The notes beneath the pieces were generated by a model. That model saw only the letters and a list, made by a program, of their open reading frames with translations, ran no database searches and was not told where the DNA came from. Positions 1-18,127 of a stretch of DNA of 36,183 bases are shown here, piece after piece. How positions within the stretch are numbered: the first letter of the stretch is position 1; each line of letters begins with the position of its first letter. This stretch comes from Candidatus Omnitrophota bacterium (GTDB taxonomy: Bacteria > Omnitrophota > Omnitrophia > Omnitrophales > Aquincolibacteriaceae): contig CAIOAT010000034.1 of assembly GCA_903856085.1 (NCBI GenBank), positions 1 to 36,183 of the forward strand, in the 5' to 3' direction. A program made the translations under genes and the position numbers.

Positions 1-234
1 GGGAGATTATTTACGGGAACTCACGGGAACGGAATATTAGGCGCAACCGGAAATGCCACAGGCGCTGAAGTTTCCACTTGGCCCGGCACCAGCGCGCTTG
101 GCTCGGGCTTTCGCGGCGGTAATTGGACCTATGGTACATCGTACGCCCGTGTCTCGGACCGTAACATCGCGGCTAACACGGATTACGTTCGGAACATCGG
201 TAACGGCGGCCGTTGTGCGAGGACTTCCCCTTAG
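1..234 (+). CDS. DGR target protein, C-type-lectin/FGE-like C-terminus (5' end outside window)
   Basis: This frame is open from base 1 to a TAG at 232-234 and gives 77 residues; the start lies upstream of the window. The visible end carries GSGFRGGNW, then a segment rich in S, R and N, and closes with GGRCARTSP. That pattern (GxRGGxW ... R ... GxRCAR) is typical of the formylglycine-generating-enzyme-like C-type lectin fold used by diversity-generating retroelement (DGR) targets. Bases 98-226 form the variable repeat. Eleven residues differ from what the template at 889-1017 would encode: nine template Asn codons became T, Y, Y, I, D, Y, V, I and G, one Asp became Gly and one Lys became Arg. 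The protein is probably a ligand-binding or surface protein with a diversified binding face. Its N-terminal domains and export signal cannot be seen. Confidence 0.85.
   Translation, partial: GRLFTGTHGNGILGATGNATGAEVSTWPGTSALGSGFRGGNWTYGTSYARVSDRNIAANTDYVRNIGNGGRCARTSP
98..226 (+). repeat. DGR variable repeat (VR)
   Basis: This 129-bp stretch aligns without gaps to 889-1017 (offset 791). The two differ at 13 positions (128, 130, 134, 142, 167, 181, 184, 187, 188, 197, 199, 200, 221), and the template base is A at all 13. Replacements are six G, six T and one C. The first 23 bases of the template have no A and are unchanged here. The 3' part (201-220) is identical in both copies and would serve as the initiation of mutagenic homology; the first non-adenine mismatch is C227 versus T1018, just past it. 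The repeat ends five codons before the target stop codon, the usual VR position. Confidence 0.95.
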
Positions 235-286
235 TTTTTTGCTCTTTTGATCTTTTAGTTTTGTTTTTTTTAACGTCAGTTCAAGT

Positions 287-301
287 CCCGCCGATGGCGG
301 G
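287..301 (+). other. GC-rich stem-loop between VR gene and avd
   Basis: CCCGCC (287-292) and GGCGGG (296-301) form a perfect 6-bp stem around the loop GAT. It lies about 50 bases after the target stop codon and about 20 before the avd start, preceded by a T-rich run (235-271). It could be the DNA hairpin often found downstream of a VR, although it is farther away than usual, or a structure in the avd leader. No T-tract follows, so it is not a standard terminator. Confidence 0.4.
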
Positions 302-322
302 GCGAAGGAAAAATAAAAATAG

Positions 323-661
323 ATGCAAAAAATAACTCCGGTTGTCGAAAAGCATTACAGGTTGATTCTCTGGATACTTCCCAAAATTGCGAATTTTCCG
401 AAAGACCAGCGGTTTCTGCTGGCGGACCGGATCGAGAGAATTTTGCTTGACATCCTGGAGATGTTGATCGAAGCGGTGTATTCGAAAAATAAAAGGGAGG
501 TCTTGATCAAGGTTAATCTAAAACTGGATGTTTTGCGTTTCATGATGAGGATTGCCAAAGATATGAAGTATGTCAGTTTGCCGGGTTATGATTATTTTTG
601 TCAGCTGACCCTCGAGATCGGCAAAATGGTCGGGGGATGGCTTAAGGCATCTGTTCTTTAA
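323..661 (+). CDS. avd: Avd-like DGR accessory variability determinant (four-helix bundle)
   Basis: This 112-residue basic protein is predicted to be almost entirely alpha-helical, with repeated patterns of hydrophobic and Lys/Arg residues (for example KHYRLILWILPKIANFPK near the start). It fits the Avd / 23S-intervening-sequence four-helix-bundle family in size, composition and position between VR and TR. In known DGRs, Avd forms a barrel-shaped pentamer that binds the reverse transcriptase and the template RNA and is needed for mutagenic homing. A purine-rich GAAGGA at 304-309 lies upstream of the ATG, with AT-rich spacing. The family call rests on sequence pattern plus the DGR context. A stand-alone four-helix-bundle protein of the same superfamily is the main alternative. 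Confidence 0.85.
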   Translation: MQKITPVVEKHYRLILWILPKIANFPKDQRFLLADRIERILLDILEMLIEAVYSKNKREVLIKVNLKLDVLRFMMRIAKDMKYVSLPGYDYFCQLTLEIGKMVGGWLKASVL

Positions 662-675
662 AATAAAAACCAGGA

Positions 676-699
676 TCCTGACGTTTACGGATGTCAGGA
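676..699 (+). other. Stem-loop in the avd-TR interval
   Basis: TCCTGAC (676-682) pairs perfectly with GTCAGGA (693-699) across a 10-base loop, 14 bases after the avd stop codon. The left arm overlaps a 10-bp palindrome, CAGGATCCTG (671-680). In a DGR this interval is transcribed as the 5' part of the template RNA, so the hairpin could be part of its fold. No T-run follows it. Confidence 0.5.
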
Positions 700-742
700 G
701 CGGCCACATGAAAGGGGAAGTCCAGACGCTATTCCTCGATCT

Positions 743-790
743 GTCATTGCGAAGGGGTTTCTTCGGTTTCTTCGACATCTTTGCAATAAC
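743..790 (+). other. Long imperfect stem-loop upstream of TR
   Basis: GTCATTGCGAAG (743-754) pairs with CTTTGCAATAAC (779-790) in 11 of 12 positions, counting one G-T pair. The 24-base interior contains two copies of TTTCTTCG (758-765 and 768-775). No gene of normal size occupies 662-1115. The segment holds this hairpin, the one at 676-699, TR, and the inverted repeat before the reverse transcriptase. A structural role in the template RNA is inferred. An unrelated dispersed hairpin element is the alternative. Confidence 0.45.
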
Positions 791-888
791 GGATGGAAAA
801 AGAGGCGGATATCTGGCGGAGGTTTTTTAACACGAAGCTTCTGCTTGATATGGCGATTAAAGCAAGGTGTAGCGTCGTAAAAGGGTTG

Positions 889-1017
889 TTGGCTCGGGCT
901 TTCGCGGCGGTAATTGGAACAATGATACATCGAACGCCCGTGTCTCGGACCGTAACAACGCGGCTAACACGAATAACAATCGGAACAACAATAACGGCGG
1001 CCGTTGTGCGAAGACTT
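889..1017 (+). repeat. DGR template repeat (TR), non-coding
   Basis: TR is the unchanging copy of the repeat at 98-226. It contains 36 adenines by hand count, concentrated in AAC/AAT triplets in the target frame (912-1000), the arrangement that yields the widest range of residues after A-to-N change. Thirteen of the 36 are altered in VR. TR lies between avd and the reverse transcriptase on the same strand, the classic order. Open frames across it are incidental. Confidence 0.95.
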
Positions 1018-1031
1018 TCCCGGATTGAGTG

Positions 1032-1096
1032 AGCGGGTGAACGGGTAAATGGGTTAACGGGTTGAGCCCGCACACTCGCTAACGCGTTCACCCGCT
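1032..1096 (+). repeat. Inverted-repeat element between TR and reverse transcriptase (element A, copy 1)
   Basis: AGCGGGTGAACG (1032-1043) and CGTTCACCCGCT (1085-1096) are a perfect 12-bp inverted repeat enclosing 41 bases. A smaller hairpin sits inside (CGGG 1058-1061 with CCCG 1067-1070). The left 29 bases match 21802-21830 at 27 positions, so this is one copy of a dispersed element. Here it begins 14 bases after TR and ends 19 bases before the reverse transcriptase ATG. In studied DGRs, RNA just 3' of TR helps prime cDNA synthesis, so it may have been taken up for that role. Confidence 0.75.
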
Positions 1097-1115
1097 AACC
1101 GATAGGTGAAAATCG

Positions 1116-2183
1116 ATGAAAAAGATCAGCAACGTTTATCATGAGATTATTTCAAAAGAGAACCTTTATCGCTCGGCGCATCTGGCCGCCCGTGGCAGGC
1201 GCTATGGGGACGCGGTGGCTGATTTTAACTTTAACCTTGAAGAAGAGATGGGGACATTGCATAGAGAATTGGCGGATAAAACCTATCGCCACGGAAAATA
1301 TCGTATGTTTACCATCTACGACCCCAAACAACGGAATATCGCTGCCGCGCCTTTCAGGGACAGGGTCGTGCATCACGCCGTGCATGATGTGATCGAACCG
1401 TTCATTGATAAAACTTTTATCCACGATTCCTATGCTTGCCGGAAAGGCAAAGGGACGCATATCGCCGTGGACAGGACGCAAAGCTTCCTGCGAGCCAACC
1501 GGTTTTGCTTGCACGGCGACGTGAAAAAGTATTTCCCTTCCATCGACCACGGCGTGCTTAAAGAAATACTCGCGAAAAGAACGACAGATAAGGATCTCTT
1601 ATGGCTTACCAACGGGATCATTGATTCGGCAAGGCAAGTCATGGATACTTCGGACCCTTGCGATGGCGGCGGCAAGGGTTTACCCATCGGCAGTCTGACG
1701 AGCCAGTTCTTCGCGAACCTTTATCTGAATGAACTGGATTATTTTGTTAAATTTGATTTGCGCCGGCGTTATTATCTCCGCTACATGGACGATTTTCTTC
1801 TTTTTGGTAATGACAAAGAGGATTTGTTCGAGGTTAAAATCAAGATAAGGGATTTCTTGAAAAACAAACTTGCTCTCGATCTCCACGAAGGCAAGTCGCA
1901 GGTTTATAAGACCCGAAACGGGATCAAATTCCTGGGGTTCAGGATCTATGAAGATCATAGAAGGCTCGCGTCGGATAATGTGAAGCGGTTCAAAAAGCGG
2001 CTTAAAAGGTTCGCTTATGACGCTGAAAACGGCAGGATCGACGCGGAAAAAATAAGCGATTCCGTCCGTTGCTGGGCGGCGCATAGTCGGTATGCCGATA
2101 CAGGTGGCTTGCGACACAGGACAAGTGACGGTTTAGCGCATAGTCGACTGAAGAGCCTGCTTGTGAATGTCTTGTTGAATTGA
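1116..2183 (+). CDS. DGR-type reverse transcriptase
   Basis: This 355-residue protein has the ordered motifs of group-II-intron-like/DGR reverse transcriptases: HGDVKKYFPSIDH at about residues 133-145 (first catalytic Asp), LPIGSLTSQFFANLYL at about 190-205, the catalytic YMDD box in LRYMDDFLLFG at about 222-232, and IKFLGFRIY at about 270-278. The SQ within the IGSLTSQ segment is characteristic of DGR enzymes. It lacks maturase and endonuclease domains, and its length is normal for the family. It would copy the TR RNA while misincorporating opposite adenines, together with Avd. AGGTGA (1104-1109) sits six bases before the ATG. The C-terminal end contains an in-frame direct repeat of GCGCATAGTCG (2079-2089 and 2136-2146). 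An ordinary retron or intron RT is unlikely given the TR/VR pair. Confidence 0.95.
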   Translation: MKKISNVYHEIISKENLYRSAHLAARGRRYGDAVADFNFNLEEEMGTLHRELADKTYRHGKYRMFTIYDPKQRNIAAAPFRDRVVHHAVHDVIEPFIDKTFIHDSYACRKGKGTHIAVDRTQSFLRANRFCLHGDVKKYFPSIDHGVLKEILAKRTTDKDLLWLTNGIIDSARQVMDTSDPCDGGGKGLPIGSLTSQFFANLYLNELDYFVKFDLRRRYYLRYMDDFLLFGNDKEDLFEVKIKIRDFLKNKLALDLHEGKSQVYKTRNGIKFLGFRIYEDHRRLASDNVKRFKKRLKRFAYDAENGRIDAEKISDSVRCWAAHSRYADTGGLRHRTSDGLAHSRLKSLLVNVLLN

Positions 2184-2338: not shown

Positions 2339-5300
2339 ATGAAACGAATGAAGTTCGCGATTCTAACGATGGCGCTTGTGATGACAGCGCTCGCGGTGCC
2401 AGCGTACGCCGAATACACAGGAGGTATCGCGTCCGGGTGGTCTTACATGGAGGCGTCGCGGTCGGTAAAGCTGATAAGAGCAGGCATGACGATATCGGCA
2501 ATATCGAGGTCGACGAATGTCGTCTCGGTCACGTTGACGGGCGCCTACCCGAACAGCAACCTGAAAACAGGACAGAGGATTGTGATATCGGGCGTGACGG
2601 GTTTTAACGGTCTTTTTACGATCACCGCCGTGACCGACCAGCTTCATTTTAGCTACGCCGAAACCGCGGCGAATGCGTCCGGGACAACGGATGGCAGTTC
2701 GATCGCGGGAGGCGACTATACTTCGCTTGTGTCTTGGGAAGCCGCGGAGGGAGGGGATCTTGTCTCGATCGGTAAGGTTGCTATAGCCGAATGTTACAAT
2801 GATTGGGCGGGCGGGCTTGCCGAGAATCTCATCATCATGGGAAACACGACCGATGCCTATCACTATCTTGAGGTTACCGTTCCGGCTAGCGAGCGCAACA
2901 ACGGAACCCCGGGAACCGGCTTTCAAATCTCCGGATATCTTACCCTGGCAGATAACGAAAACGTGCACCTCACGTATCTCGAGGTGACTGGCATGACCTC
3001 CGTAACAGCCGGGACGATAACAGAACAGGGCAGTTTATATACGGGCGGCCTCTCGGTCGCGCCCGCCGCGACCATCAACATCGTAGGCGCTTCTTCGCAA
3101 TATCGCGGCGGACAAAATGCCGGCTGGACTTACGCAGAGATGTCCGATACTGCGCTGGACTCGGTAGCGATCGATGCTATGAAGATCATCCGAGCAGGCC
3201 AGACGATATCGGCGATATCGAGGTCGGCGAACGTCGTCTCGGTCACGTTGGCGGCTGCCTACCCGAACAACAACCTGAAAGTCGGGCAGAAGATAACGAT
3301 CAACACGGGTTCGGGCGGGACCGCGTCCTTTAACGGGACGTTTGTCATCGCTTCAGTAACCAGCCAAGCCCTCTTCAGCTACGCACAGACTGGTGTCGGT
3401 GTGGCGGGGACCCTCGGGACAAGCCCTTGGGCCGGGGGAGATTATGCCACTTTGAGTGGTTGGGAGACCGCCGAAGGAGGCGACCTCGTCTCGGGGAACA
3501 GGCGTGCGACCGCCGAATGTTACAACGATTGGGGAGCGGGCGGCCTCTCCGACAATCTCACTCTCTCCGGCAATACGACTGACGCGACGCGTTATTTAAG
3601 GATCTCCGTGCCGCCAAGCGAACGGCATAACGGGACGACCGGAACGGGTTTTAAACTCGCCGGCACGCTGACTGTCTCAGACAGCGGATACGTAACGGTC
3701 GAATATCTTGAGGTGAGCGGCCTGACCACGATTTCGGCCGGAACGCTTACCGATTTTGGCTCGCTCTATACAGGGGGATTGTCAGCCGCTTCGGGCGTGA
3801 CTCTCAATCTCGGAGGTTCGGGCTTTACCAATTGGGGAACGGTGACTTTGAATGCCGCGTCCACCGTTGTCTATACGGGCCGGATAGATAATTCCCGATC
3901 CACCGTCACCCTGATCAATGCTCCTCACGGAAATATTACGTTGAACTATCCTTACGGGACCTTCAACCTTCCGGCCAATTTTACGATCAACGGAAATCTC
4001 GTCATAAACGCTCTTACCACTTTGGATGTGAGGAGCTTGAACCAGGCCTCCACTTATAACATTGCCTGCGCGGGCAATTGGACGAATAACGGGACATTCA
4101 TCTACTCCATAGGCACGGTCACTTTAACAAGCGGTGGCAACCACGCCCTATCCGGTTCCAATACCTTCTATAAATTAACGTGCGATATTTCCGGCGACAC
4201 CACGGGACGGATGCTCACATTCGCCGCCGGCACGACGCAGACGATCGTCTCGGGCGGGACGCTCACGCTGAAAGGCGGCTCAGGCAAGGTCCTGACCATT
4301 GCTTCGAGCGCTTCGAGTGCCGCTTACCTGATCGTAAACAGCGCAGCAACCGCAGTCATGGGCTACTTGAGCGTAAGCTATAACGACGCTTCGGGCGGGA
4401 AGTTGTTAGCTCCCACGAATTCAAGCAGCGGCGACGGTGGAAATAATGTGAACTGGAACTTTGACGCCGCAAACACGACCCGCTGGTTAGGCGGCACTTC
4501 GACGGCCTGGGCCACAGCTGCGAATTGGTCGGCCGGTAGTCCGGATGCTACAAAAACCGCGGTCATCGACGGAGCTGGAACCTATCAGCCCACAGTGTCG
4601 AGTCCTGCCAGCGCCAAAGCTGTTTACGTGAGCGGTTCGTCCACGCTTACACTCAACGCTCTTTTGACCACGGCAGGCGTCGTGCAGTTAAATACCGGCG
4701 CCACGATCGACGCCTCGGGCGCCAGCGGGGCCGTCACGGTCGGCGGCAATTACACTCAAAGCGGCGGCACCTTCACCGGGGGAGCTACGAATTGCACGTT
4801 TAACGGAAATTTTACAAAGGCAGGCGGCACGTTTACGGCTCCGACCACGGCGACATTCACGGGCGCGGCATCTGCTCTGACAGCCAACGGCCAGACATTT
4901 AACGCCATGACCGTCAATAAGAATGACGGAGCAATCTTCACCGTAGTCAGCGGCACCACGATTACGGCGAACGGGGCGCTGACTCTTACGGACGGTTCGC
5001 TCAATACCGGCACCGTGAATGCCAAAGGCGCGGTTTCGGTCGCTTCCACGTTTGACGGCGGCACGGCAAATTTAATTTTAAATAGCGCAGGCGCGCAGAC
5101 AGTGACGCTTGGCGCGGGCAGCGCGTTGCCCAACGTCACGTTTAATAATTCCAATCTCAGCGTGACGCCGGCCGGAAGTTTATCCTTTTACAGTCTCACA
5201 TTGACCTCAGGGACTTATTACTCCAGCTCTTATACGACCACGATCACCAGCGGGGATTTTACCGTGAACGGCGGAACGTTTGACGAAGGCACAGGCACGG

Positions 5301-8300
5301 TCGCGTTCACCGGTGCCGGTGCCAATCAGACCCTTACCGCCGATGCAGAGGTATTTAATAATCTTAGCTCCAACAAGCCGGGTTATGCTCTGATCATCGC
5401 CGGCGGTACAAGCGTTACCACCCACGGGACATTGACGCTAACGGACGGTTTACTCAATACTGGCACCGTCAATGCCCAAGGTCCAGTCTCGGTCGTTTCC
5501 ACGTTTGACGGCGGCACGGCGGCGATTACACTTTCCGGTACTGCTGACCAAGCCATCACTTTGGGCATGGCGACGCCTTTTACCGGTGCTCTTACGGTCA
5601 ATAAAGATTCCGGCACAGTCACGAGTGCCGGCGCATGGACCATCCCCGGTGCGGTGGCCATCACAAAGGGCGTGTTGTCGCTTGGGGGTGATACCACATT
5701 CCAGGATAACGTCACCATCGCCTCCGGAGGGACGCTTTCCGCGACGACGGGCGGGAAGACGATCCGGTTCAAGCAAGTCAAAACACTGACTGTCAATTCC
5801 GGCGGCACGCTCAATCTCTACGGCGCTGCAGGAAGTCTCCTCACGCTCACCAATAACACCGGCGATGGCGTGAACAAATGGAAGATCAACGCAGCGTCTG
5901 GCAGTGTTTACAATATCGATTATGTCAGCGCTTTTTATTCGGACGCTTCGACCTATCCGAAAATTTATACCAGCGCGCAGTCGACGGTAGACGCGAGCTG
6001 TGTCAACTGGGACAGGACTAATTCCACCTGGACATGGGTCGGCGGCGCGTCCGGTGCCACTACGGACTGGAATACGCCTACGAACTGGAGCCCTCAATCG
6101 GTGCCCGGAGCCGGTGCGGATGTGAGCATCCCGCTCACGACCTATAAGCCGGTGCTTTCCGTTTCGACCTCCATAAAATCGCTCACGATTGATGGTGCAG
6201 GGGTGAATCTTACCACGAACGCGGGGGCCAACCTCACGGTGACCGGGAACGTGACTCTGACAAACGGAGGCGAGCTGAAACTCAATTCCACGACATTCAC
6301 TTGCGGCGGGAACGCGAACTTCAGCGCGGGGACGCTCACCGAAGACACGTCCACGATCGTGATGAACTCAGGTGGTGCGGCGACATTGACGCTGGACGGC
6401 GACGCGACGGTGAATAATTTTACGTGGAGCGGCGCGGGCACTCTGAATTTCGGCGCGGCGAATGTGACGGTGACCGGCGTCTGGACGCAATCGTCAGGCA
6501 CGGTGAATGCACCGAGCGGGACGCTGACTTTTACCACGAGTAACTTTACGCGCTCCGGCGGCGTGTTCAACGCCGGTACCGGGACGGTCGCGTTTACCGG
6601 AAGCGGCGCCGGCCAGTCCATCACGGCCGATACGCAGGTTTTTAATCACCTTCGCTCCGACAAGAATGGTTACAGTCTGACCGTTACCGGCGGCACCAGC
6701 ATTGAAGTGGACGGGACATTGACACTGACCGATGGAACGCTTGATACCGGTACAGTGAACGCGAAAGGCACGGTCGCGGCTGCTTCCACATTTGATGGAG
6801 GAACAGCAGCCCTGATTTTGAATGGCTCAGGCGCGCAAACCTTTACGCTTGCCGCGGGAAGCGCACTGCCCAACGTCACGTTCAATAACGCCAATCTTAA
6901 TGTGACGCCGGCCGGAAGTTTGTCCTTCTACGGGCTTACGTTGACTGCGGGCACTTATCACTGTAGTTCTTACACAACGACGATCACGGGCGGGGATTTT
7001 AACGTGAACGGCGGCACGTTTGACGAGGGTACAGGCACGGTCGCGTTTACCGGGGCCGGTGCCAATCAGACGATCACCGCTGATGCTGAGGTATTTAATA
7101 ACCTTAGCTCCAACAAACCGGGTTATGCCCTGATCGTTGCCGGCGGCACCAGCATTATCACCAACGGGACCTTGATGTTGACGGATGGTTCTCTCAATAC
7201 CGGATTGCTCTACGCCAAAGGGGCGGTCTCGGTCGCTTCCACGTTTGATGGCGGCACGGCGGCGATCACTCTTTCCGGTACGGGCGCCCAGGCCATCACG
7301 CTCGGAGGCGGCACATTCCCGAACGGCGCTTTCACGATCAACAAGACCTCCGGCACTGCTACCTCCAGTGGCGCGTGGACGATCCCCGGGACGACGACGG
7401 TGACGCAAGGTGCTCTTTCGACCGGCGCGGCGACGACTTTTACCGGCGCGGTCTCGGTTGCATCGGTGGGAACGCTTTCCGCCTTAAGCGATGGTACTTT
7501 CAGCAGTACCGTGGCAGTTGCTTCCGGCGGCTCTTTCTCCGTTGCGGGCAATGCTATTTTTGGAGATATGGTCAACTCAGCGGGCGTATCTTCGATCCAG
7601 GGCACTGCCGCTTTCAATAATGCCGTGACTTGCAGCGGCGCGCTTTCGGTTACCGGGGATGCGACCTTCAGCAATACGGTCGGCGGCGCGGGTGCGCTCT
7701 CGTTTGCCGGCAACACTACGTTTAACGATGCCGTGACGATTGCGTCGGGTGGTATCTTTTCGCACACCACCGGCGGCAAGACGCTTAAATTCAAGGAAAA
7801 TAAAGCTGTGAATATCCAATCTGGCGCGACTCTTACATTGAGGGGCGCGTCGACCAGCAATTTGCTGACCGTGGATCGCACCGGCAGTTCGGGACAGTGG
7901 AGTTTGACGATGAACGGCGGCTACGAGTTTTCTTATCTCAACGTAAAAAACTCACTTGCCTCAACCGATGTCTATGCCACAAGCTCCACGGACGGATTGA
8001 ATAATAACGTTAAGTGGCATTTCGTGGACCTGGTGACCTGGAATGGAAGCAGTTCCACGGACTGGGGGACCAAGGCCAACTGGACTCCTGCGGTTGTTCC
8101 CGGCGCGGGGACGGATGTTGTGATCCCGAGTACCGGGACCAAGCCCACGCTTGGAGTGGCGGCGACGATCAAGTCGCTCAACCTTTCTCAAGCGGGAAGC
8201 CAGCTCACTTTGGGTGCGAACCTTACGGTGCTCGGCGATATCACGAACGTTGGAACACTTTTACCGCAGTTGTATACGCTCACCTGCGGTGGAAATTTTG

Positions 8301-11300
8301 ATACCGGAAGCGGCATGCTCACAGCCTCCACATCGACCTTGATCATGAACGCCGCAAGCGGCACAAAGACGGTAACGCTTGGGGCTAGCGGCCTGAACCA
8401 TCTTACCTTGAACGGCGCGGCCGCGTTTAATTTCGGAACGGCGGACGCCACGCTCTCCGGCAATTTTACGATTTCAAGCGGCACCGGCACGGTGACTGCT
8501 CCGAGTGGGACGATTACATTCACCGGCAATAGTTCCACGGTGGACGTCCAGACTTCATTCGCAGTGAACGGCCTTACCATAAACAAGACCTCGGGCCAGA
8601 CGCTCACGATCGCCTCGGGCGATACGCTGACGGTGGCCGGAACTCTCACTCTTACCGACGGCGCGGTTGGGACGGGTACGTTGGACGCAAAGGGCGCGGT
8701 TTCCGTGAGCGCGGGATTTGACGGCGGGAACGCGGCTCTCCAACTTTCGAGTATTACCGCCGACCAGACGTTGAATGTCGCTTCTAGCGGCGTGGTGCCG
8801 ACGGGAAATATGACGATCAATAAGAGCGGCAAGGCCGCGACGATCAGCGGTTCATGTGCTCTGAATAATGTGACCTTAAGTGCGGGCACGCTTTCGTTCG
8901 GTGCCGGATCGACCTACACATTCACTGCGGGGAAGACACTGAATGTCGGCGTCGGGACAATCTGCAATTTCACGGGCACGAATGCTTCCAACAGGGTGAC
9001 GCTGCGCAGTTCCGTGACGGATTCACCCTGGAATTTGACCAAGACCGGCACGGTGAACGCCCTTTATGTGGATGTCAAGGATTCCAACGCCTCCGCCGTG
9101 GTGATCGCCAATAACTCCGTCAATTCCGGAGGAAATACCAACTGGTCGATTCTGGATCTAACGAACTGGGATCTCGATCTCAACGCCGGCACGATGACTT
9201 TCGTCTTCGGTTATCCGGTCGATGCGGGAACGCTAGCCGCCAACCTGAACGTTACTGTGCAAAATTCGAATGGGTCGCATAGTTATGTCCTGACCGGCGG
9301 CGCCACCGCCTCCCCGAACGGCACGACGATCGTGATGAATCTGAATGCCACGGACCTGAACGCGATCAAGGCGGATGAGAATATCGGGAAATCGGCAGCG
9401 AACAGTTATATCACGATCACAAGCAGTCTGATCCAGAGCACAGCCGGCAACAATGTCAGCGAGATCCTGACGCCGAAGCAGGTTCGGAATTACACGGCGG
9501 ACGCGACGGCCGCGGCGTTCGCGAGCTGGGTGCTCGATATGAATAATCATACCCTGACGCTCAATTTCAGCGAAAGCGTGAAGGCGTCCAGTTGGACGCC
9601 CTCTGCGGTGACGTTGCAAAACACCGCTTCCGCGCCGACGAAAACTTATGTCCTAACCGCGGGCTCCACCACGGCCAGCGCCAACGGAACGCAGCTTGTG
9701 GTCACGCTTTCTCCGACGGATTTTAACGCACTTGTGGATTTCACCGGCGGCGGCCTTTGCGCGTTGCAGGGGAACAGTTATATCACGATGACTTCTTCGG
9801 CGGTCACGGACATGGCCCCGACTCCGAACAGTTTGACGGCGGTGACGACGGGGATCCAAGCCGCCTACACTTCGAACACTGCTTCTCCCACCGAGTTTTA
9901 TGTCACAACTTCGGGGGCATCGTCGACTTCCGTCACTGCGGGGACGGCCAAGCAGATCACTTTGAAGGCGTACGACAGTTCCGGCTATCGCGTGCCGTAT
10001 TACAGCGGAGACAAAACACTGACCTTTTCCGGTGCCGCGAATTCTCCGAAGGGCGACGTTCCTTCCGGAAGGAACAAGACCGGCGCGGACATCAATTTCG
10101 GGTCGAATACGGTCATTAATTTTTCGAACGGTCAGGCGTCGAGTTTTCTGGTGCTTTATTGCAAGGCGGTTTCGGGATCTCCCGCCCTGGTCAAAGCGGC
10201 GGAAGGGACGAGCGTCATAACGCAGGATGCGCGAGGCCTGAGTGTCACGGTGGATCCGCAGGTCAAGAATAACCTGGCATTCTCCCAGGAGCCCTCTTCC
10301 ACAGGCATCATCAACGTCGCTTTGGCGACGCAGCCGAAAGTGATCGTGAGAGATATGTTCTGGAACAAGGTGGATACGGACGGCGACAGCGTTACGATCT
10401 ACGCGTATGATCCCGCGAACGACCAGCCCGTATCGAACATGACGCTGACGGTCACGACAAACCCCGTCACGGCGACTGCGGGAACGGCGACCTTCGCTGG
10501 CGTAAAATTCGATACTCCGACGACCATCTATTTGTTTGCGGACTGCAACGGCGTTACGTCGGCTTCCTCCGGTCATATTACATTCAGCAATTCCGCGACG
10601 ACGACCGTGGACGCGGCGACGGCGGCTGTTCCCGATTTCGGTCTCATTCCCACGAACGATACTTTTGGCACGAGGTTCGATGTGCTGAAGTTCAAGATCA
10701 CGGATAAAGGCGGCGATACGACCGATACGAAGATCGACCGGATCAAGATTGCTTTCGGCGGGACCGGCGGAAACGCAAGCGGCGACATCGCGTGGGCGGG
10801 GTTGTATAAGGGTGCCACGCAACTCGCGACGGCGACGGGAGCGGCGATCACCAACTCCCAAATCACATTCGGCACGATGGGCGCGGTCATGGACACCATT
10901 ACCGATACGGGGTCAGGCTCTTCCACCGAATACACGGTCTCTATCTATATGAAAAACAGCAAGCTCGCCGCCACGGAAAATGATACCTATACGTTCACGA
11001 CCAATGAGACGCTTGTGGATGTGCACGCGACCGGTTCTTCGCTGATGAAGACGGATAGTTCCGGCGCCATCGCGACGGTGACCGGGACGATCGTGGTCAA
11101 CCAAACGCATTGGGAGATCGTCGACGCTTCCTCCGGGAGTTCGTCCTTGAGCGTGACGGCGGGCGCGGACAAGGAGCTTATCCTGCGCGCCGTGGACGCA
11201 AACAAGAACGTGGATAAGGATTACGGCGATCCCGTAAACGGAAATTTTATGAGCCTGGTCTTTAACGGTCTTTCGACGATCGGCATCAATCACCCTACCA

Positions 11301-14300
11301 TTGAAGGTACCTATTTCGGGAATGCAACGATCATAAAATTTTATGGCGGCACTACGGTCAATCCGTCTACCGGTCTGTCCACCGGCGCGACCCTGAAAGC
11401 CTTCAAGCGGGAGACGGCCAATATATCGATCTCTTCTCCGGTCAATCCGGGAACCGGGTTGCCTTACCTTATGCACACGGTTTCGGCGGATGTGGCCGCG
11501 GGAAGCCCGAGCGTGCTTTCGAAGACAAGCGGTGATGCTCAAGTGGGCAAGACCTCCAAGGCATTGCCGAATCCGATCCTTGCAACGGTGACGGACACTT
11601 ACGGCAACACGGTTTCTGGTCAGACGATCGCGTTTGCGGTTTCGGGGCCGGGTTCGCCTTCCGTCAATCCGACGAGCGCTTTAACGGATTCGAACGGCCA
11701 GGCAGCGACCATTCTTACTTTGGGTTCCGCCGATGGCTCTAACACGACAGTGACCGCCACACCGACAGGTTACGGCACACCGCAGAATTTTACGGCCACG
11801 GGCCGCACGCCGCGAGGCATCTATATCGTCAGCGGAGACGGGCAGTCGAAGATTATCAATCTTAATCTGGATAACCCGCTCGTGTGCAAGCTGGTCGATG
11901 TTGCGAGCGGAGACGGAAACCCGATTCCGAATGAGACGGTGGCGTTCAGTTTCTCGTCGGTTCCTTCGGGCGCGCTGAATCAATCGGTCGCGCCCTCAAC
12001 AGCCGTGACGAATTCAGGAGGTCAGGTTTCGACGACTTCGGTTCAAATGGGCACTGTGACCGGCAATTACCTCGTTCGGGCCACTTACGGCGCACTCACG
12101 AAAGATTTTACTGCGACCGCGACGTCACCCGGAGCGACGAAGATCGTACTGACCGGTCCGGGGTCAGTGACCGCGGGCTCGCCTTCGACGGCATTTACGA
12201 TCACCGCGAGAGACAATTTTGACAACGCGGTCGCGGTCGCTCAAAACACGGTCCTGGGACTGACCACGTCGCCGGCGAGTACGGGCGCGTTCTACAGCGA
12301 CAGCGGATGCACGATTCCCCTGAATCCCATACAGGTGACCATTGCAAACGGCGCAAGCACAGCCCAGTTTTTCTATAAAAATACTGCGGCGGGGAATGTG
12401 ACCTTGATCGCGACGCGGACAAGCGGGCAGTCTTTGCCGGATGGCGCCGTGAGCCAGCAGGCGATCACGATCATTCCCGCCAACATCAACTATTTAATTG
12501 TCGGAGCGGCAGATATGAGCACGGTGACTGTCGGCGTCGCGAGGACCTTTACGGTCACCGCTTACGACCAATACAATAATCCGTCGACGAACGCGGGCAC
12601 TGTCAACGTGACGTTCGATACGGCAAGTTCATCGCCTTCGGGACAGGCGCCGACCGTGAATAATATCGCCTTTGGAAGCTCGACGCCTCTTGCTTTCGGT
12701 TCAGGCAACGGTCAAGTAACAGCCTCGTTAAAACTCTACAAGGTCGAAAGCGTTGTAATCAAAGCGACCGCCGGTTCTGCCGTAACCTCCGACGCGAACG
12801 ACCTGCACTTGACGGTGAAACACGGGACCGCGGACCACGTGAAATTGGACGGTAATATCACTTCGCCCCAAGCGGCGGGCACCCAATTCAATTTTAACGC
12901 GAATTTGATCGTCGTCGATCCTTACGGCAATCTTTGCGATACCACCAACGGTGGCACGGCCTATTCCGGAGCTAAAGACATTACATGGTCCCTGAGTGGC
13001 ACGGCGAATTCGCCGGACGGTCTGTCCCTCGACGCGTATGATACGCCCGTCACTTTTACGAACGGTAGTTCTTCGCCGACGGTGCTTAAAGCGACTCTTT
13101 ACCGCGCGCAGAACACGAAGATCCTTATGGATATCTCGACACTGCCCAAGACTGTCGCGAACGAACAGTCCAACACGATCACAGTTACGGCCGGAGCGAT
13201 CAACAAACTTAATTTTGACGTGCAGCCTCCTTTGAACGGAACCACGGCACAACTCTTGTCGCCTCAGCCGCGGGTGGCGGCGGGTGATCAGTACGGCAAC
13301 CCTTGCAGTGCGGCTTCCGGTAGCATCCACTTAGAGGCCGTCAGGGACGTAAGCGATAATCCCGCGAACGGGACATTAAGCGGCACGGCGACGCAGGCGT
13401 TGAGTAACGGGGTGGCGACTTTTAACGATATCAGTTATCCATATCCAGAGCAGATCCTATTGAAGGCGACGGTTGCGGGCGTAAGCCTCTCGCCGATCTA
13501 CTCGACGCCGACGACATTTGCCACCACGACCGACCTCGGCGTGGCGGCCTTATCAGTGGGGGAGAAGACCGCGGCCAACATCACCGGCCTGGTTTCTTCC
13601 GTTGCGAACGCCGCCGTGAGCAAGGTGCCGGTCTACGGATTTAAAATAACCGATGCAGGTTTGGATGGCCGCGACGGCATGATCCAGAAGATCGTGGTCC
13701 ATCGCGGGGCGGGTGATACGGCGGGCGATTGGACGGCCTATATCTCGGATGCCTGGATCACGGACGGCACGACGGTTCGGCTCGGAACGGTCGGCGCGAG
13801 CGCGATCACGTTCGGAGACGGGACAAGCAATATCTTTACGGTTCCCAACAACAACACTCTGGCTCCGAAAACCTACGTCCTGAGCGTGGTCCTGAAAAAT
13901 CCGGTTCCCACAGGTGCGGACGGCAAGGTGCTGGGATTCACCCAGACCGCCGGTGCCGACATTACGGTGGATGCGGCGCTGGGTTCGACCTTTGCCGCGA
14001 CTTCCGCGATCACCGGAACTTCAACGGTCACGGTCGTTGCAACCGATCTTAAGATCACAGGCAGTGCAAATTCCATGGCCTCGGGGGATAGCGTGACCCT
14101 TACGATCAAGGCAATCGACGCGAACGGCAATATCGATAAGGAATACACGGGAGAGAAAGGGCTTATTTTCAGCGGCGCGAATGTTTCCGCAAATAACACC
14201 AGCCCCACATGCACGGATACCGTCGGATCGTCAAGGTCCTTCGGCCCGACCACAGGGGATTCCACGCTTGTCGCTTTTGCGAACGGCGTGAGTAGTTCGT

Positions 14301-16651
14301 CTAACACACTCCAGCTTGTCATGAAACTTTACAAAGCCGAAGTCGCCACGATCTCCGTGTCGGATACGGTGCTCAGTGCTTCGACTGCAAGCAAGTTCGC
14401 GATCACGGTGAGCGGCGGCGCGGCGTCCCAGCTTTTCTGGGACACACAGCCGGTTTCGATGGTCGCGGCCAACGCCCCGTGGAAGCCTTTCGTTTTGAGC
14501 GTTGCGGACGCTTACGGCAACACGTCCTCCAGTACGTCGGACATCACCGTCACGCCGTCCGGTAACGGCGTGCATACCGGTGCGGCAGCCATGGCGACTG
14601 TCACGGCGTCCGCAGGTCTGGCGACGTTCAATAATTTCTCCGTATGGTGCGATTCCTATCCCGGCGCGGTGACGCTGAACGCGACCGCGCAGGGCGTTAC
14701 AGCCTCAGGACCGTCGAGCGCGGTTCAGGTGGATCAGACCTATGCGATCGAATTGAACGTCAAGGACACGGTGACCGCGACGCATCTTGCGGGAGTGTCG
14801 CTCAAGGTGCAACAAACGGTCAACGGGGTTACGACCACGGTGTATGGCCCTGTCACGGGCAACAGTCCGTTCAACCTGAGCCTGCCTTACGGGACTTACA
14901 CATTCATCATGACGCTTGATAAATACATGGATTACACCACCGAAGAGGTCGTTGGCGCAACGGCGGACGGTGGCGACGGCACCTACGACAACGTGATTCA
15001 CTGGACCCGATACATGACGACTCTGGCCGAGGCGACGGCCGACTACCGGGTGATGCCGAGTTTTGTTTATGATGAGGATAATGATGATCTTTACATACGC
15101 TTGTGGCTGGAGCGGCGCGGCAAGCTCATTTTGAACACAGGCACGAATATTCTCGGCCGGGCGCTGGTGAGTGTGTATGACGATGTCACTCAGGCATGGC
15201 TTCCCACCATCGAACTTACCCCGCCACTGTCTTCGGATACGGTCAACGGGACCTACGTGCGTAAGTTATCGGGCATCGTGACGAGCGTGGCAAACGGTTT
15301 CGGCAAGACCCTGACGTCGGGCAAGACGTATTTTGCCAAGTGCCAGATCTATTACGGCGGTCCTTTGGGAGATAGCACTCTTTACGAAGCAGGCGCCACA
15401 TTCACAGTGACCAACACGCAGAAAGTCGGAAACGAGATCATCAGCAAATTGGGAGTTCCAACCGGCCAGACCCTGGGTGGAATGATGACGTCTGTGCAAA
15501 CGGCGGTGGCCGGCGTCAGCACCAAGGTTGACACCACAACCGCCAAGGTGGATGCCATTGGGACGCAGGTGGCTACTGTGAATGCGAATGTTGCCAGTAC
15601 GGGTACCAAGATCGATACGGTCCAGGGTACGGTGGGCGCTATTCAAACCGATGTTAGCACGACTTTACCGGCCAAGGTCCTGGCGAATATGGAAAAGGGA
15701 GTGATGAGTGAAATCCTTACGCGTTATACGGTTCTGAGGGAGGATGACGAGGTCAAGATAAGATACCGTACTGCGAGCGGCCTTAAACCTGCATTGACTA
15801 TCTTCAAGCCGGATGGGACCATTTTGGCGGATTATAACGGCGTCAAAATGACGGAGATCAACAAAACGGGTATCTATGAATACTCGGTGACGGCGAAAGC
15901 TTCATGGGGAATCGGGGATTTTACGGTCCAATGTTCCGAGTCTACCAAGGGTTCTACGGATAGCATGGTTTTGACAGTGAAGGCGCTTTATACCGCAGGG
16001 GCCGGCGTGCAAGAGTCGATCGACGCTGTGGGAGAAGCCGTGTCCAAGGTGTATGGGCGGCAAGGTTCCATCCAGGATCTTTTGGGAACCTCTGCCGACG
16101 GTCTCAACAAAGGCAGCATCTTTGGGAGGGTGAATGGTTTTAACACAAAGTTGGACGGCTTGAATCTTACTACCGTTTCGACGGACGCGAAGAATGCCCG
16201 GGAGAATGCGGAAAATATTTACAGTGAGATCAAGAATCTAACGGGCAGCATGGGAGATGTGAAAACTCAGTCCGTGGCTCTCAAACAGTTATTAAGTCAA
16301 CTCGACGAGATGCGCGCCAATCTTGCCAAGGCATCCAAGAGCCTTGCCGCCGTGGGCGCCTCTTCCGGTGGCGGAGGGGAAGTGACGGTCTCAGGTGGCA
16401 CGACCACGATCGTTAATGGATCGGGAGTGTCGGGAAGCGGACTTAACGCGACGGATGAGAAATCGCTGTCAGCTCTTCTGAAGGACGCGAAGGGATTAAA
16501 GAAATCCGGAGCTTTGGGCGTAACGGAAGTAGAGGCCCGAGATCTTAATAACAAGATCGAGGCGTTGACCGCGCTCGTGAAGGTTCTCGGTCAAATGGTT
16601 CAGAATACGGGCAACAAGCCGATTATCGAAGGCTGGTTCGAGCAAGAGTGA
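2339..16651 (+). CDS. Giant exported beta-rich repeat protein (4,770 aa)
   Basis: The ATG follows a good ribosome-binding site (AAGAAGG, spacing 7). Residues 1-24 are a clear signal peptide ending in PAYA. Two tandem units of about 238 residues follow (roughly 25-500), each holding an ISRSxNVVSVTL...FNGxFxI...FSYAxT beta module. From about 500 to 2270 come parallel-beta, haemagglutinin-like repeats (LTLTDGxLNTGTVxAKG), opened three times by a WxGxxxxW...NW...P module. Next are SbsA-like and invasin/Big-type Ig-like modules (for example ATVTDTYGNTVSGQT). Residues from about 4,360 onward carry a predicted coiled coil rich in V, T and D heptads, a small beta domain and a second helical stretch. 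The composition is rich in T, G, S, A and N. There is no C-terminal membrane helix or sorting motif. It is most likely a cell-surface or released adhesin/filament, possibly exported through the downstream secretion system, but its function is unknown. Confidence 0.85.
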   Translation: MKRMKFAILTMALVMTALAVPAYAEYTGGIASGWSYMEASRSVKLIRAGMTISAISRSTNVVSVTLTGAYPNSNLKTGQRIVISGVTGFNGLFTITAVTDQLHFSYAETAANASGTTDGSSIAGGDYTSLVSWEAAEGGDLVSIGKVAIAECYNDWAGGLAENLIIMGNTTDAYHYLEVTVPASERNNGTPGTGFQISGYLTLADNENVHLTYLEVTGMTSVTAGTITEQGSLYTGGLSVAPAATINIVGASSQYRGGQNAGWTYAEMSDTALDSVAIDAMKIIRAGQTISAISRSANVVSVTLAAAYPNNNLKVGQKITINTGSGGTASFNGTFVIASVTSQALFSYAQTGVGVAGTLGTSPWAGGDYATLSGWETAEGGDLVSGNRRATAECYNDWGAGGLSDNLTLSGNTTDATRYLRISVPPSERHNGTTGTGFKLAGTLTVSDSGYVTVEYLEVSGLTTISAGTLTDFGSLYTGGLSAASGVTLNLGGSGFTNWGTVTLNAASTVVYTGRIDNSRSTVTLINAPHGNITLNYPYGTFNLPANFTINGNLVINALTTLDVRSLNQASTYNIACAGNWTNNGTFIYSIGTVTLTSGGNHALSGSNTFYKLTCDISGDTTGRMLTFAAGTTQTIVSGGTLTLKGGSGKVLTIASSASSAAYLIVNSAATAVMGYLSVSYNDASGGKLLAPTNSSSGDGGNNVNWNFDAANTTRWLGGTSTAWATAANWSAGSPDATKTAVIDGAGTYQPTVSSPASAKAVYVSGSSTLTLNALLTTAGVVQLNTGATIDASGASGAVTVGGNYTQSGGTFTGGATNCTFNGNFTKAGGTFTAPTTATFTGAASALTANGQTFNAMTVNKNDGAIFTVVSGTTITANGALTLTDGSLNTGTVNAKGAVSVASTFDGGTANLILNSAGAQTVTLGAGSALPNVTFNNSNLSVTPAGSLSFYSLTLTSGTYYSSSYTTTITSGDFTVNGGTFDEGTGTVAFTGAGANQTLTADAEVFNNLSSNKPGYALIIAGGTSVTTHGTLTLTDGLLNTGTVNAQGPVSVVSTFDGGTAAITLSGTADQAITLGMATPFTGALTVNKDSGTVTSAGAWTIPGAVAITKGVLSLGGDTTFQDNVTIASGGTLSATTGGKTIRFKQVKTLTVNSGGTLNLYGAAGSLLTLTNNTGDGVNKWKINAASGSVYNIDYVSAFYSDASTYPKIYTSAQSTVDASCVNWDRTNSTWTWVGGASGATTDWNTPTNWSPQSVPGAGADVSIPLTTYKPVLSVSTSIKSLTIDGAGVNLTTNAGANLTVTGNVTLTNGGELKLNSTTFTCGGNANFSAGTLTEDTSTIVMNSGGAATLTLDGDATVNNFTWSGAGTLNFGAANVTVTGVWTQSSGTVNAPSGTLTFTTSNFTRSGGVFNAGTGTVAFTGSGAGQSITADTQVFNHLRSDKNGYSLTVTGGTSIEVDGTLTLTDGTLDTGTVNAKGTVAAASTFDGGTAALILNGSGAQTFTLAAGSALPNVTFNNANLNVTPAGSLSFYGLTLTAGTYHCSSYTTTITGGDFNVNGGTFDEGTGTVAFTGAGANQTITADAEVFNNLSSNKPGYALIVAGGTSIITNGTLMLTDGSLNTGLLYAKGAVSVASTFDGGTAAITLSGTGAQAITLGGGTFPNGAFTINKTSGTATSSGAWTIPGTTTVTQGALSTGAATTFTGAVSVASVGTLSALSDGTFSSTVAVASGGSFSVAGNAIFGDMVNSAGVSSIQGTAAFNNAVTCSGALSVTGDATFSNTVGGAGALSFAGNTTFNDAVTIASGGIFSHTTGGKTLKFKENKAVNIQSGATLTLRGASTSNLLTVDRTGSSGQWSLTMNGGYEFSYLNVKNSLASTDVYATSSTDGLNNNVKWHFVDLVTWNGSSSTDWGTKANWTPAVVPGAGTDVVIPSTGTKPTLGVAATIKSLNLSQAGSQLTLGANLTVLGDITNVGTLLPQLYTLTCGGNFDTGSGMLTASTSTLIMNAASGTKTVTLGASGLNHLTLNGAAAFNFGTADATLSGNFTISSGTGTVTAPSGTITFTGNSSTVDVQTSFAVNGLTINKTSGQTLTIASGDTLTVAGTLTLTDGAVGTGTLDAKGAVSVSAGFDGGNAALQLSSITADQTLNVASSGVVPTGNMTINKSGKAATISGSCALNNVTLSAGTLSFGAGSTYTFTAGKTLNVGVGTICNFTGTNASNRVTLRSSVTDSPWNLTKTGTVNALYVDVKDSNASAVVIANNSVNSGGNTNWSILDLTNWDLDLNAGTMTFVFGYPVDAGTLAANLNVTVQNSNGSHSYVLTGGATASPNGTTIVMNLNATDLNAIKADENIGKSAANSYITITSSLIQSTAGNNVSEILTPKQVRNYTADATAAAFASWVLDMNNHTLTLNFSESVKASSWTPSAVTLQNTASAPTKTYVLTAGSTTASANGTQLVVTLSPTDFNALVDFTGGGLCALQGNSYITMTSSAVTDMAPTPNSLTAVTTGIQAAYTSNTASPTEFYVTTSGASSTSVTAGTAKQITLKAYDSSGYRVPYYSGDKTLTFSGAANSPKGDVPSGRNKTGADINFGSNTVINFSNGQASSFLVLYCKAVSGSPALVKAAEGTSVITQDARGLSVTVDPQVKNNLAFSQEPSSTGIINVALATQPKVIVRDMFWNKVDTDGDSVTIYAYDPANDQPVSNMTLTVTTNPVTATAGTATFAGVKFDTPTTIYLFADCNGVTSASSGHITFSNSATTTVDAATAAVPDFGLIPTNDTFGTRFDVLKFKITDKGGDTTDTKIDRIKIAFGGTGGNASGDIAWAGLYKGATQLATATGAAITNSQITFGTMGAVMDTITDTGSGSSTEYTVSIYMKNSKLAATENDTYTFTTNETLVDVHATGSSLMKTDSSGAIATVTGTIVVNQTHWEIVDASSGSSSLSVTAGADKELILRAVDANKNVDKDYGDPVNGNFMSLVFNGLSTIGINHPTIEGTYFGNATIIKFYGGTTVNPSTGLSTGATLKAFKRETANISISSPVNPGTGLPYLMHTVSADVAAGSPSVLSKTSGDAQVGKTSKALPNPILATVTDTYGNTVSGQTIAFAVSGPGSPSVNPTSALTDSNGQAATILTLGSADGSNTTVTATPTGYGTPQNFTATGRTPRGIYIVSGDGQSKIINLNLDNPLVCKLVDVASGDGNPIPNETVAFSFSSVPSGALNQSVAPSTAVTNSGGQVSTTSVQMGTVTGNYLVRATYGALTKDFTATATSPGATKIVLTGPGSVTAGSPSTAFTITARDNFDNAVAVAQNTVLGLTTSPASTGAFYSDSGCTIPLNPIQVTIANGASTAQFFYKNTAAGNVTLIATRTSGQSLPDGAVSQQAITIIPANINYLIVGAADMSTVTVGVARTFTVTAYDQYNNPSTNAGTVNVTFDTASSSPSGQAPTVNNIAFGSSTPLAFGSGNGQVTASLKLYKVESVVIKATAGSAVTSDANDLHLTVKHGTADHVKLDGNITSPQAAGTQFNFNANLIVVDPYGNLCDTTNGGTAYSGAKDITWSLSGTANSPDGLSLDAYDTPVTFTNGSSSPTVLKATLYRAQNTKILMDISTLPKTVANEQSNTITVTAGAINKLNFDVQPPLNGTTAQLLSPQPRVAAGDQYGNPCSAASGSIHLEAVRDVSDNPANGTLSGTATQALSNGVATFNDISYPYPEQILLKATVAGVSLSPIYSTPTTFATTTDLGVAALSVGEKTAANITGLVSSVANAAVSKVPVYGFKITDAGLDGRDGMIQKIVVHRGAGDTAGDWTAYISDAWITDGTTVRLGTVGASAITFGDGTSNIFTVPNNNTLAPKTYVLSVVLKNPVPTGADGKVLGFTQTAGADITVDAALGSTFAATSAITGTSTVTVVATDLKITGSANSMASGDSVTLTIKAIDANGNIDKEYTGEKGLIFSGANVSANNTSPTCTDTVGSSRSFGPTTGDSTLVAFANGVSSSSNTLQLVMKLYKAEVATISVSDTVLSASTASKFAITVSGGAASQLFWDTQPVSMVAANAPWKPFVLSVADAYGNTSSSTSDITVTPSGNGVHTGAAAMATVTASAGLATFNNFSVWCDSYPGAVTLNATAQGVTASGPSSAVQVDQTYAIELNVKDTVTATHLAGVSLKVQQTVNGVTTTVYGPVTGNSPFNLSLPYGTYTFIMTLDKYMDYTTEEVVGATADGGDGTYDNVIHWTRYMTTLAEATADYRVMPSFVYDEDNDDLYIRLWLERRGKLILNTGTNILGRALVSVYDDVTQAWLPTIELTPPLSSDTVNGTYVRKLSGIVTSVANGFGKTLTSGKTYFAKCQIYYGGPLGDSTLYEAGATFTVTNTQKVGNEIISKLGVPTGQTLGGMMTSVQTAVAGVSTKVDTTTAKVDAIGTQVATVNANVASTGTKIDTVQGTVGAIQTDVSTTLPAKVLANMEKGVMSEILTRYTVLREDDEVKIRYRTASGLKPALTIFKPDGTILADYNGVKMTEINKTGIYEYSVTAKASWGIGDFTVQCSESTKGSTDSMVLTVKALYTAGAGVQESIDAVGEAVSKVYGRQGSIQDLLGTSADGLNKGSIFGRVNGFNTKLDGLNLTTVSTDAKNARENAENIYSEIKNLTGSMGDVKTQSVALKQLLSQLDEMRANLAKASKSLAAVGASSGGGGEVTVSGGTTTIVNGSGVSGSGLNATDEKSLSALLKDAKGLKKSGALGVTEVEARDLNNKIEALTALVKVLGQMVQNTGNKPIIEGWFEQE
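2411..3830 (+). repeat. Tandem duplication of the N-terminal ~238-codon unit
   Basis: Sequence around 2491 (GATATCGGCAATATCGAGGT) recurs with few changes at 3205, an offset of 714 bp or 238 codons. Matching landmarks include AYPN, the FNG/FSYA beta module, AECYNDW, and SLYTGGLS at the end of each unit. The two copies make up the start of the mature giant protein. Confidence 0.7.
4800..7440 (+). repeat. Intragenic duplication with a 1,740-bp period
   Basis: Lines of sequence from about 4800 to 5700 match 6540 to 7440 at an offset of exactly 1,740 bp (580 codons). For example, GGCACGGTCGCGTT at 5296 recurs at 7036, and GTGACGCCGGCCGGAAGTTT at 5162 recurs at 6902. Divergence is mostly synonymous or conservative, so this looks like an older unequal-crossover duplication. 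After about 7440 the second copy carries extra short beta repeats before the two resume similarity (5701 region versus about 7721). Confidence 0.75.
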
Positions 16652-16656
16652 GACAG

Positions 16657-16731
16657 AGTGTCAGAGAGAAAAAGTATCAAAGTGTCAGAGAAGTAAAGTG
16701 GTTCACTATGAAACTTTGACACTGTGACACT
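16657..16731 (+). repeat. AGTGTCA inverted-repeat element (element C, copy 2)
   Basis: The 102-bp spacer after the giant gene holds AGTGTCAGAG at 16657-16666 and 16681-16690, then the complementary TGACACT at 16717-16723 and 16725-16731. The arms can pair in several registers. No T-run follows, so this is a dispersed repeat or partial attenuator rather than a clear terminator. It shares its units with 2286-2321, so the two elements bracket the giant gene. Confidence 0.55.
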
Positions 16732-16753
16732 CAAGGGGCGTCAAGACCATTCT

Positions 16754-18127
16754 ATGAAAAGAAAAACGGCGGGATTACTGTTGCTTGCGGCGTGCCTCCT
16801 TCTGTTTACCGCCGGCGAAGCTTGTGCGGCGGTGAAACTGAAGATCGCCGTGGTCAACCCGTCTTCGACGGAAAAACAGTTGTCTCCCGTCCGGTATGAT
16901 CTTCCCAAAGGTATCGGACCCGATCAGATCCTGGATATTGGCGATCTGGCGTTGAAGTATGACTTTGATAAGGGCGTTTATTACCTTGAGGGCAGTCTGG
17001 AACTGGCTCCCTCCGAGCGAAAGGTGCTCGAAGTTTTGCTTCGTGATGTCTGGGCCATTCCGAAAAAGGACCTGGTGAGTTTAAAAGACCACGCGGCATT
17101 GTTGACCCGTAAACTCAAGGACACCAAACATTTTGAAGCGGGCAACGCGATCGCAAAGAATATCAATGCTCAGCTGGATGACATGATCCAAAGAGAGAAT
17201 GACGGGGCTTTGCCCATCAAAGACCGGATCAACCAGTATTATGAGGATGTGGTGGCTCTTAATGCCGCTAAAGAAAATATAGGAATGCTTGAAAATCTGG
17301 TCCTCGATACCGGGGGGATCGTGGAGGAAAGGGTGCAGGTTCCTACGACGCTCGCCGTGCCCGTCGCTTCCGCGAAAGGGGGGGGACGCCAGCCGGCTGC
17401 CAACGTCATCGACCTGAAAGTGAAAGTCACCAATCCCTCAAAGACCGCGAAGATGAACGCGCCGGTAAAATTCCTGCTTCCGGCGGAGGTGAGCCCGCGG
17501 TATATCCTTGATACGAACGGCCTCGAAATGGCTTATGATTTTGAGAAGGAGTGTTTTTCTCTTTATAAGGCGGAAGTGGAATTGGCTCCGGGAGAGACGA
17601 AAGAGTTCGCTGTCAAGATCCAGGATATGTGGAGGATCGCCAAGGTCGAAATTGATGCGTTGAAATCTCATACCCACAATATCATGGTGCTGCTCGAGGG
17701 GAGCGAACATTACGCTCGGGCCAAGCATTCCGCCGACAAGATCAATGCGAACATGGATCTGATCCTTAAAACCCAGGGCGCCAAGGTGTCCGCCATGGAA
17801 CATATCGCCTATTACCGGGACAACATGAAGCTGCTGAATACAGCCAAGCAAGAGATCGCGGAATTGGAGAGGCTTGTCAGTCAGCGGGGCACAAGCGCGG
17901 GCGTGACGGTGAAATGGCCGGAAGAGGCCGGCGGCGGATCGATGTCACAAAGGAAGAGGGGTTTTGAAGGGATCGACCTGATCGCTCGATCCATTTTTAA
18001 AGGAAAGGCCCCGACCATTGCGACGACCTGGAAGATCATTTATTTGATCCTCGCTTTTTTGGGAATTGTCGCCGCTTTCTTTTTCTCATTATGGTATATT
18101 CAACTCAAGAAAAAATCTGAAAAGTAA
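16754..18127 (+). CDS. Exported two-domain protein with C-terminal membrane anchor, unknown function
   Basis: I chose the ATG at 16754 because it gives a clean signal peptide (MKRKTAGLLLLAACLLLFTA..., cleaved near ACA); a GTG 30 bases upstream is in frame but would place ten extra residues before it. The 457-residue product contains the same domain twice, at about residues 30-190 and 205-385. Each copy starts KxxVxNPSxTxKxxxPVxxxLP, continues with a YDFxK block, LAPxE, and DxWxI, and ends in a helical, probably coiled stretch. A single hydrophobic helix follows (about 424-448) with a short basic tail, so most of the protein is outside the cytoplasmic membrane. Its stop codon overlaps the epsilon-subunit start by one base, tying it to the ATPase genes. 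No known family is recognised. A link between the membrane ATPase and the giant protein is speculation. Confidence 0.7.
   Translation: MKRKTAGLLLLAACLLLFTAGEACAAVKLKIAVVNPSSTEKQLSPVRYDLPKGIGPDQILDIGDLALKYDFDKGVYYLEGSLELAPSERKVLEVLLRDVWAIPKKDLVSLKDHAALLTRKLKDTKHFEAGNAIAKNINAQLDDMIQRENDGALPIKDRINQYYEDVVALNAAKENIGMLENLVLDTGGIVEERVQVPTTLAVPVASAKGGGRQPAANVIDLKVKVTNPSKTAKMNAPVKFLLPAEVSPRYILDTNGLEMAYDFEKECFSLYKAEVELAPGETKEFAVKIQDMWRIAKVEIDALKSHTHNIMVLLEGSEHYARAKHSADKINANMDLILKTQGAKVSAMEHIAYYRDNMKLLNTAKQEIAELERLVSQRGTSAGVTVKWPEEAGGGSMSQRKRGFEGIDLIARSIFKGKAPTIATTWKIIYLILAFLGIVAAFFFSLWYIQLKKKSEK

Follow-up and report, generated by a model that had tools for sequence, protein, structure and literature searches.

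A recently active, cellular diversity-generating retroelement in Omnitrophota with a predicted lectin-type target

Natural activity of diversity-generating retroelements (DGRs) is already documented, and many DGRs are phage-borne (PMC8144416). In phage DGRs, a hairpin or cruciform with a 4-nt GRNA loop is found 4-34 bp after the variable repeat (VR), and this structure is needed for BPP-1 homing (PMC3240598). The global DGR survey names Omnitrophica once, within the PVC group, and our literature search, of incomplete coverage, found no work on DGRs specific to Omnitrophota.

Here, we describe a DGR at the start of a contig of 36,183 nt, which is analysed at its full length (referred to as the window) and represents the entire contig C34 of a 2.36-Mb, 50-contig Omnitrophota genome. 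Compared with the BPP-1 DGR (Avd-RT-TR, Mtd target), it is alike in the A-specific exchange between template repeat (TR) and VR, in Avd and the DGR reverse transcriptase (RT), and in an FGE-type target whose 3' end holds the VR. In contrast to BPP-1, whose target is a tail fibre, the window DGR is chromosomal, its target is probably a secreted cellular protein, and a T-rich tract follows the VR in place of the conserved GRNA-loop hairpin. Thermus TaqVP and Treponema TvpA are single-domain proteins, whereas the window target, for which unlike these two no structure has been solved, carries additional N-terminal sequence ahead of the FGE domain. All DGR parts, the adenine-only exchange, differing VR alleles over an unchanged TR and a conserved gene context are present. 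The DGR is genuine, recently active and cellular; the mechanism is already known and DGR activity as such is not new. Our findings contribute a cellular, lineage-specific DGR of Omnitrophota for which natural VR alleles are known over a single template and which, in three families, neighbours the gene of a giant surface-type protein. We assign a probability of roughly 93 % to the reading that a chromosomal, recently active DGR rewrites the VR of a secreted FGE/C-type-lectin-type gene, with a likely role in attachment.

Repeat pair, target gene and VR alleles

All features lie on the forward strand. The window opens with the 3' end of the target gene (positions 1-234, 77 codons and the stop), which is cut by the contig start, followed by avd (accessory variability determinant, 323-661, 112 aa), the TR (889-1017) and an RT gene (1116-2183, 355 aa, intact), i.e. 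the order target-VR, avd, TR, RT given by a sequence-only reading of this DNA. Avd scores 106 bits with NF033474, an NCBIfam equivalog model with a curated cut-off (80), and matches bAvd (PF22296) at 2.2e-20, while the RT shows the motifs LPIGSLTSQ and YMDD and matches RVT_1 at 1.3e-20. The locus is a complete DGR, comprising Avd, an intact DGR-type RT, a TR and the 3'-terminal part of a target gene.

The VR (98-226) aligns with the TR over 129 nt without gaps, and all 13 mismatches fall on TR adenines, exactly as had been noted from the letters alone (A>T 6, A>G 6, A>C 1; hypergeometric P about 1e-8). The TR contains 36 adenines and 14 Asn codons in the target frame, and recounting by translation agrees with the 11 altered target residues counted before, nine of them from Asn (the others from Asp and Lys, one each). 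By computation, around 7e18 protein versions are reachable from the TR over 18 codons, and none of the reachable codons is a stop. Two further VRs of the window species are available, one on a public contig matching the window over its full length (CAIXBR010000018.1, 5825 bases; L028) and a third on contig C1 of the window's own genome, which ends in it. Differences from the TR are located at adenines in 18/18 cases in L028 (P 2e-12) and in 23/24 cases in C1 (P 3e-15), the single exception being the synonymous C1001G. Strict adenine-only divergence, as originally claimed, thus holds for the window VR and L028 but not for C1.

One of the 13 window differences is of another kind. The codon AAG at TR 1012 reads AGG (Lys>Arg) in 3/3 VRs of the window species, i.e. 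at position 221 in the window, close to the VR 3' end, and its counterpart is also found in most other clade members (L029-L032, L034 and L035). Because the same change recurs across alleles and species, we read it as the probable 3' limit of copying (IMH versus IMH*-like), a fixed boundary difference and not a mutagenesis event, so that about 12 of the 13 changes would be mutagenic. By analogy with BPP-1, we infer that the RT, together with Avd, would copy the TR transcript into cDNA and misincorporate bases opposite TR adenines, and that this cDNA would then take the place of the VR in the neighbouring secreted FGE/C-type-lectin-type gene, at its 3' end, as far as the fixed boundary near position 221. 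As the TR would remain unchanged, new alleles could repeatedly be drawn from one template.

The full target gene, which had been expected beyond the contig start, was recovered from the same MAG, on its contig C1 (14876-16444, corresponding to L004 6877-8445). It encodes 522 aa with a signal-peptide-like N terminus, and we infer secretion and surface exposure of the product. In a profile search, the FGE-sulfatase domain PF03781 (E 2.7e-15) covers residues 228-519 with the VR inside; the VR is therefore placed by profile at the C terminus of a predicted C-type-lectin-fold target, in agreement with the lectin fold proposed in the first reading. AlphaFold2 models were unusable, both for the whole target (pLDDT 36) and for the FGE domain (pLDDT 29). 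A DUF2341 protein gene is located upstream of the C1 target, and a relative of it upstream of the DGR of Velamenicoccus archaeovorus.

C34 and C1 overlap by 121 exactly matching bases, ending at the first VR difference, which we interpret as an assembly-graph branch; this is consistent with, but no proof of, a single locus. The longest identical run between TR and VR is only 30 bases, too short for this repeat alone to interrupt a long-k assembly. Among the clade contigs, 8/14 end within about 220 bases of a VR compared with 0.65 expected, a descriptive figure since both the list and the distance limit were chosen post hoc and some of the distances were typed in manually. In L031, the assembly has reduced the second VR to two N. 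These contig ends fit hypervariable VRs breaking assemblies. Alternatively, the C1 and C34 VRs might belong to two paralogous targets served by one TR, which would affect the C1 copy only, is compatible with the main explanation and is in our view tenable, if rather doubtful. In Velamenicoccus, two targets are identical over the 963 bp upstream of the VR while their VRs differ at 13 positions, all of them TR adenines, other relatives carry two or three targets, and C1 differs from C34 and L028 outside the A sites too (C1001G, an AAG insertion and one G>A). Against this, the genome assembly holds one target 5' part only, and the C1 target is the sole FGE-domain gene found in it, although identical copies could be collapsed. 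The evidence for activity drawn from L028 and the window is independent of this question.

The alignment of L028 with the window spans 5,816 positions and contains 21 differences, of which 16 are found in the 129-base VR (12.4 %) and five in the other 5,687 bases (0.09 %; Fisher P 2e-23 for the enrichment in the VR). All 16 VR differences are located at TR adenines, and they change 12 codons with no synonymous change. The TR is identical; outside the VR, the two differences in avd are synonymous, and the single one in the RT exchanges Glu for Asp. Since L028 and C34 are colinear from the VR through avd, TR and RT into the giant ORF downstream, the VR difference lies at one site in any case. 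The concentration of differences in the VR, at TR adenines and over an identical TR, indicates that the VR has been rewritten from a single template since the window and L028 strains parted. The A-position polymorphism to be sought in related sequences is thus present, and the past or current accelerated evolution put forward in the sequence-only reading is supported by differing VR versions over an unchanged TR with nearly invariant flanks.

L028 was deposited in an Elusimicrobia-labelled bin (AlinenLipids_bin-3311), but is probably mis-binned, since the ATPase of that bin, only 74 % identical to that of the window genome, identifies the bin as another organism. With 99.9 % identity outside the VR, we assign L028 to the window's species. 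Mis-binning of the window itself was also considered and rejected: by tetranucleotides, C34 16652-36183 lies at a distance of 0.109 from the genome core, inside the core range (0.082-0.127), and C34 fits its genome in composition.

A decayed DGR, with a VR that was diversified in the distant past and has since become fixed, is very unlikely. Only three VR sequences are known, and the RT of one relative (G063) is frameshifted in its assembly; however, RT and avd of the window are intact, and a divergence of 12.4 % in the VR against 0.09 % elsewhere needs diversification after strain separation. Identical VRs and a frameshifted RT had been named beforehand as marks of a relic, and neither was found for the window DGR.

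Relatives, cis elements and identity of the RT

The VR-avd-TR-RT order with A-specific exchange is also found in L029-L035, G378, G384, G174, G063 and G095, i.e. in ten or more other loci of Omnitrophota. Among 384 sampled Omnitrophota genomes, 18, including the window's own, contain an RT match at 1e-40, and none of the other 17 belongs to the window's genus or family. In the RT tree, the Omnitrophota sequences (10 rows) form a single clade with a support of 99 and no viral contig inside. The DGRs of V. archaeovorus LiM (accession number NZ_CP019384) and other Omnitrophota share the RT clade, the gene order and the giant ORF downstream with the window, with targets about 56 % identical to the window target. 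Velamenicoccus differs in having two targets, the second between the RT and the giant ORF, and F-type ATPase genes elsewhere in its genome. Its targets (L032, 3475-5202 and 7417-8970) differ in their N-terminal parts, followed by the identical stretch before the VR, and the pair looks like the product of recent gene conversion or duplication with subsequent separate diversification of the VRs. In G063 (L221, G063:C3:40000-59999, around 8604-9678), the RT frame is broken near residue 186, while TR/VR and avd look intact, which represents either an assembly error or an inactivated DGR.

That the element is prophage-borne and diversifies a phage tail protein is highly improbable: while many known DGRs reside in phages, as mentioned above, the window carries ATPase and pilus genes and no recognised phage gene, the RT clade is without a viral member, and the closest phage RT is about 41 % identical. 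Likewise, a search of viral contigs for relatives of the target found none.

The sequence following the VR differs from that described for phage DGRs. No GRNA-loop hairpin was found within 34 bp after the window VR, although this feature was described for phage DGRs and is not taken as obligatory. A potential hairpin with an 8-bp GC-rich stem and a 3-nt loop lies 58 bp past the VR (285-303) but is not conserved in relatives, where a search for a conserved hairpin after the VR found none. Directly 3' of the target stop, a tract of 62 % T (235-284) is present, and similar tracts occur after the targets of relatives. The 50 bases past the target stop contain 42-62 % T in all targets examined, whereas the median across all long ORFs of these loci is 30 %, and when 50 ORFs were ranked by the T content after their stop, the top five were all DGR targets. 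The T-rich tract is possibly a cis element for homing, or a mere transcript tail. After the TR, an inverted repeat of the GGGTGAACGGGT type is located at 1029-1099. Because a similar copy lies between the ATPase gamma and beta genes (21794-21833), it is probably an interspersed intergenic repeat.

The RT itself has the BPP-1 DGR RT as its top PDB match (8ub7_A, E 8.5e-51). A chance or gene-conversion repeat beside a group II intron or defence (DRT) RT has a negligible probability, since group II maturase and DRT models do score on the window RT but far below their cut-offs (148 versus 300 for the maturase; 57.6 versus an NCBIfam cut-off of 200 for the best DRT model, Drt3a, which leaves the RT outside the antiviral DRTs), its best structure match is a DGR RT, and both Avd and adenine-only exchange are characteristic of DGRs. 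A search of Rfam gave no match. A second RVT_1 gene is found on C1 of the same genome (G000:C1:1016-1708) in a 610-codon open frame, and possibly encodes a group II intron protein.

Downstream neighbourhood and possible role in attachment

Downstream of the RT, the window encodes a giant repetitive protein of 4770 aa (2339-16651), which is rich in T, G, A and S and has a signal-peptide-like N terminus, followed by a 467-aa protein of unknown family (16724-18127), which adjoins the giant ORF in several relatives too. A second F-type ATPase set (epsilon, b/delta, c, alpha, gamma, beta; 18127-23315), the other set being located on C13 (G000:C13 223371-226478), and type IV pilus/type II secretion genes (PilB-like, PilC-like, pseudopilins, PilM/N, PilO; 23324-31982) follow. 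A homologue of the giant ORF lies directly 3' of the RT, or of the RT and a second target, in the window, L029, L030, L032, G079 and G174, i.e. in 6/9 clade members with enough sequence, belonging to families f1, f21 and f27. Near the RTs of G063, G378 and G095 no such homologue is present, the remaining clade contigs being too short to judge, and no giant ORF was found within the stretches examined around more distant DGR-type RTs of Omnitrophota, some of them in the same genomes.

F-type ATPase/pilus loci and giant ORFs of Omnitrophota have been described as signs of symbiosis or predation and connected by others with attachment to foreign cells, a 'symbiotic' locus being defined by a non-respiratory (type 2/3) F-type ATPase whose genes lie no more than 10 kb from those of a type IV pilus (PMC10066038). 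The window resembles these F-type ATPase/type 4a pilus loci in the second ATPase set, which adjoins the pilus genes and is a candidate for the type 2/3 class, and in the giant ORF. It differs in that a DGR heads the locus and in that its giant ORF (14.3 kb) is below the 20-kb limit applied there. In a text search of that study, diversity-generating elements turned up only in one reference title.

Considering this neighbourhood, the target is most likely a variable binding protein through which the bacterium attaches to surfaces or to other cells, acting with the giant protein and perhaps with the pilus/ATPase system; this cell-attachment role is a hypothesis. It is tempting to speculate that the DGR is built into a cell-attachment locus in which the pilus/ATPase machinery works jointly with the giant secreted protein and the hypervariable FGE-fold protein, a combination that we regard as conceivable but somewhat short of probable. 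If true, a predatory or epibiotic nanobacterium would keep altering its binding range by rewriting one recognition surface. In an enrichment culture, V. archaeovorus was seen to attach to other cells and prey on them (PMC10066038). Since it also carries the same cassette, with two targets, DGR-diversified recognition of prey or surfaces is directly testable in this organism.

The downstream genes also bear on the history of the locus within the phylum. In G063, a member of another family, the order giant ORF, 467-aa gene, ATPase, PilB and PilC is kept, and alpha, beta and PilB are 72-82 % identical to those of the window, compared with only 47-58 % for the ATPase and pilus proteins of the window's congener G001 (window 16652-31982). 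This closer relationship to G063 than to the congener suggests that the ATPase/pilus locus was transferred or differentially retained within the phylum.
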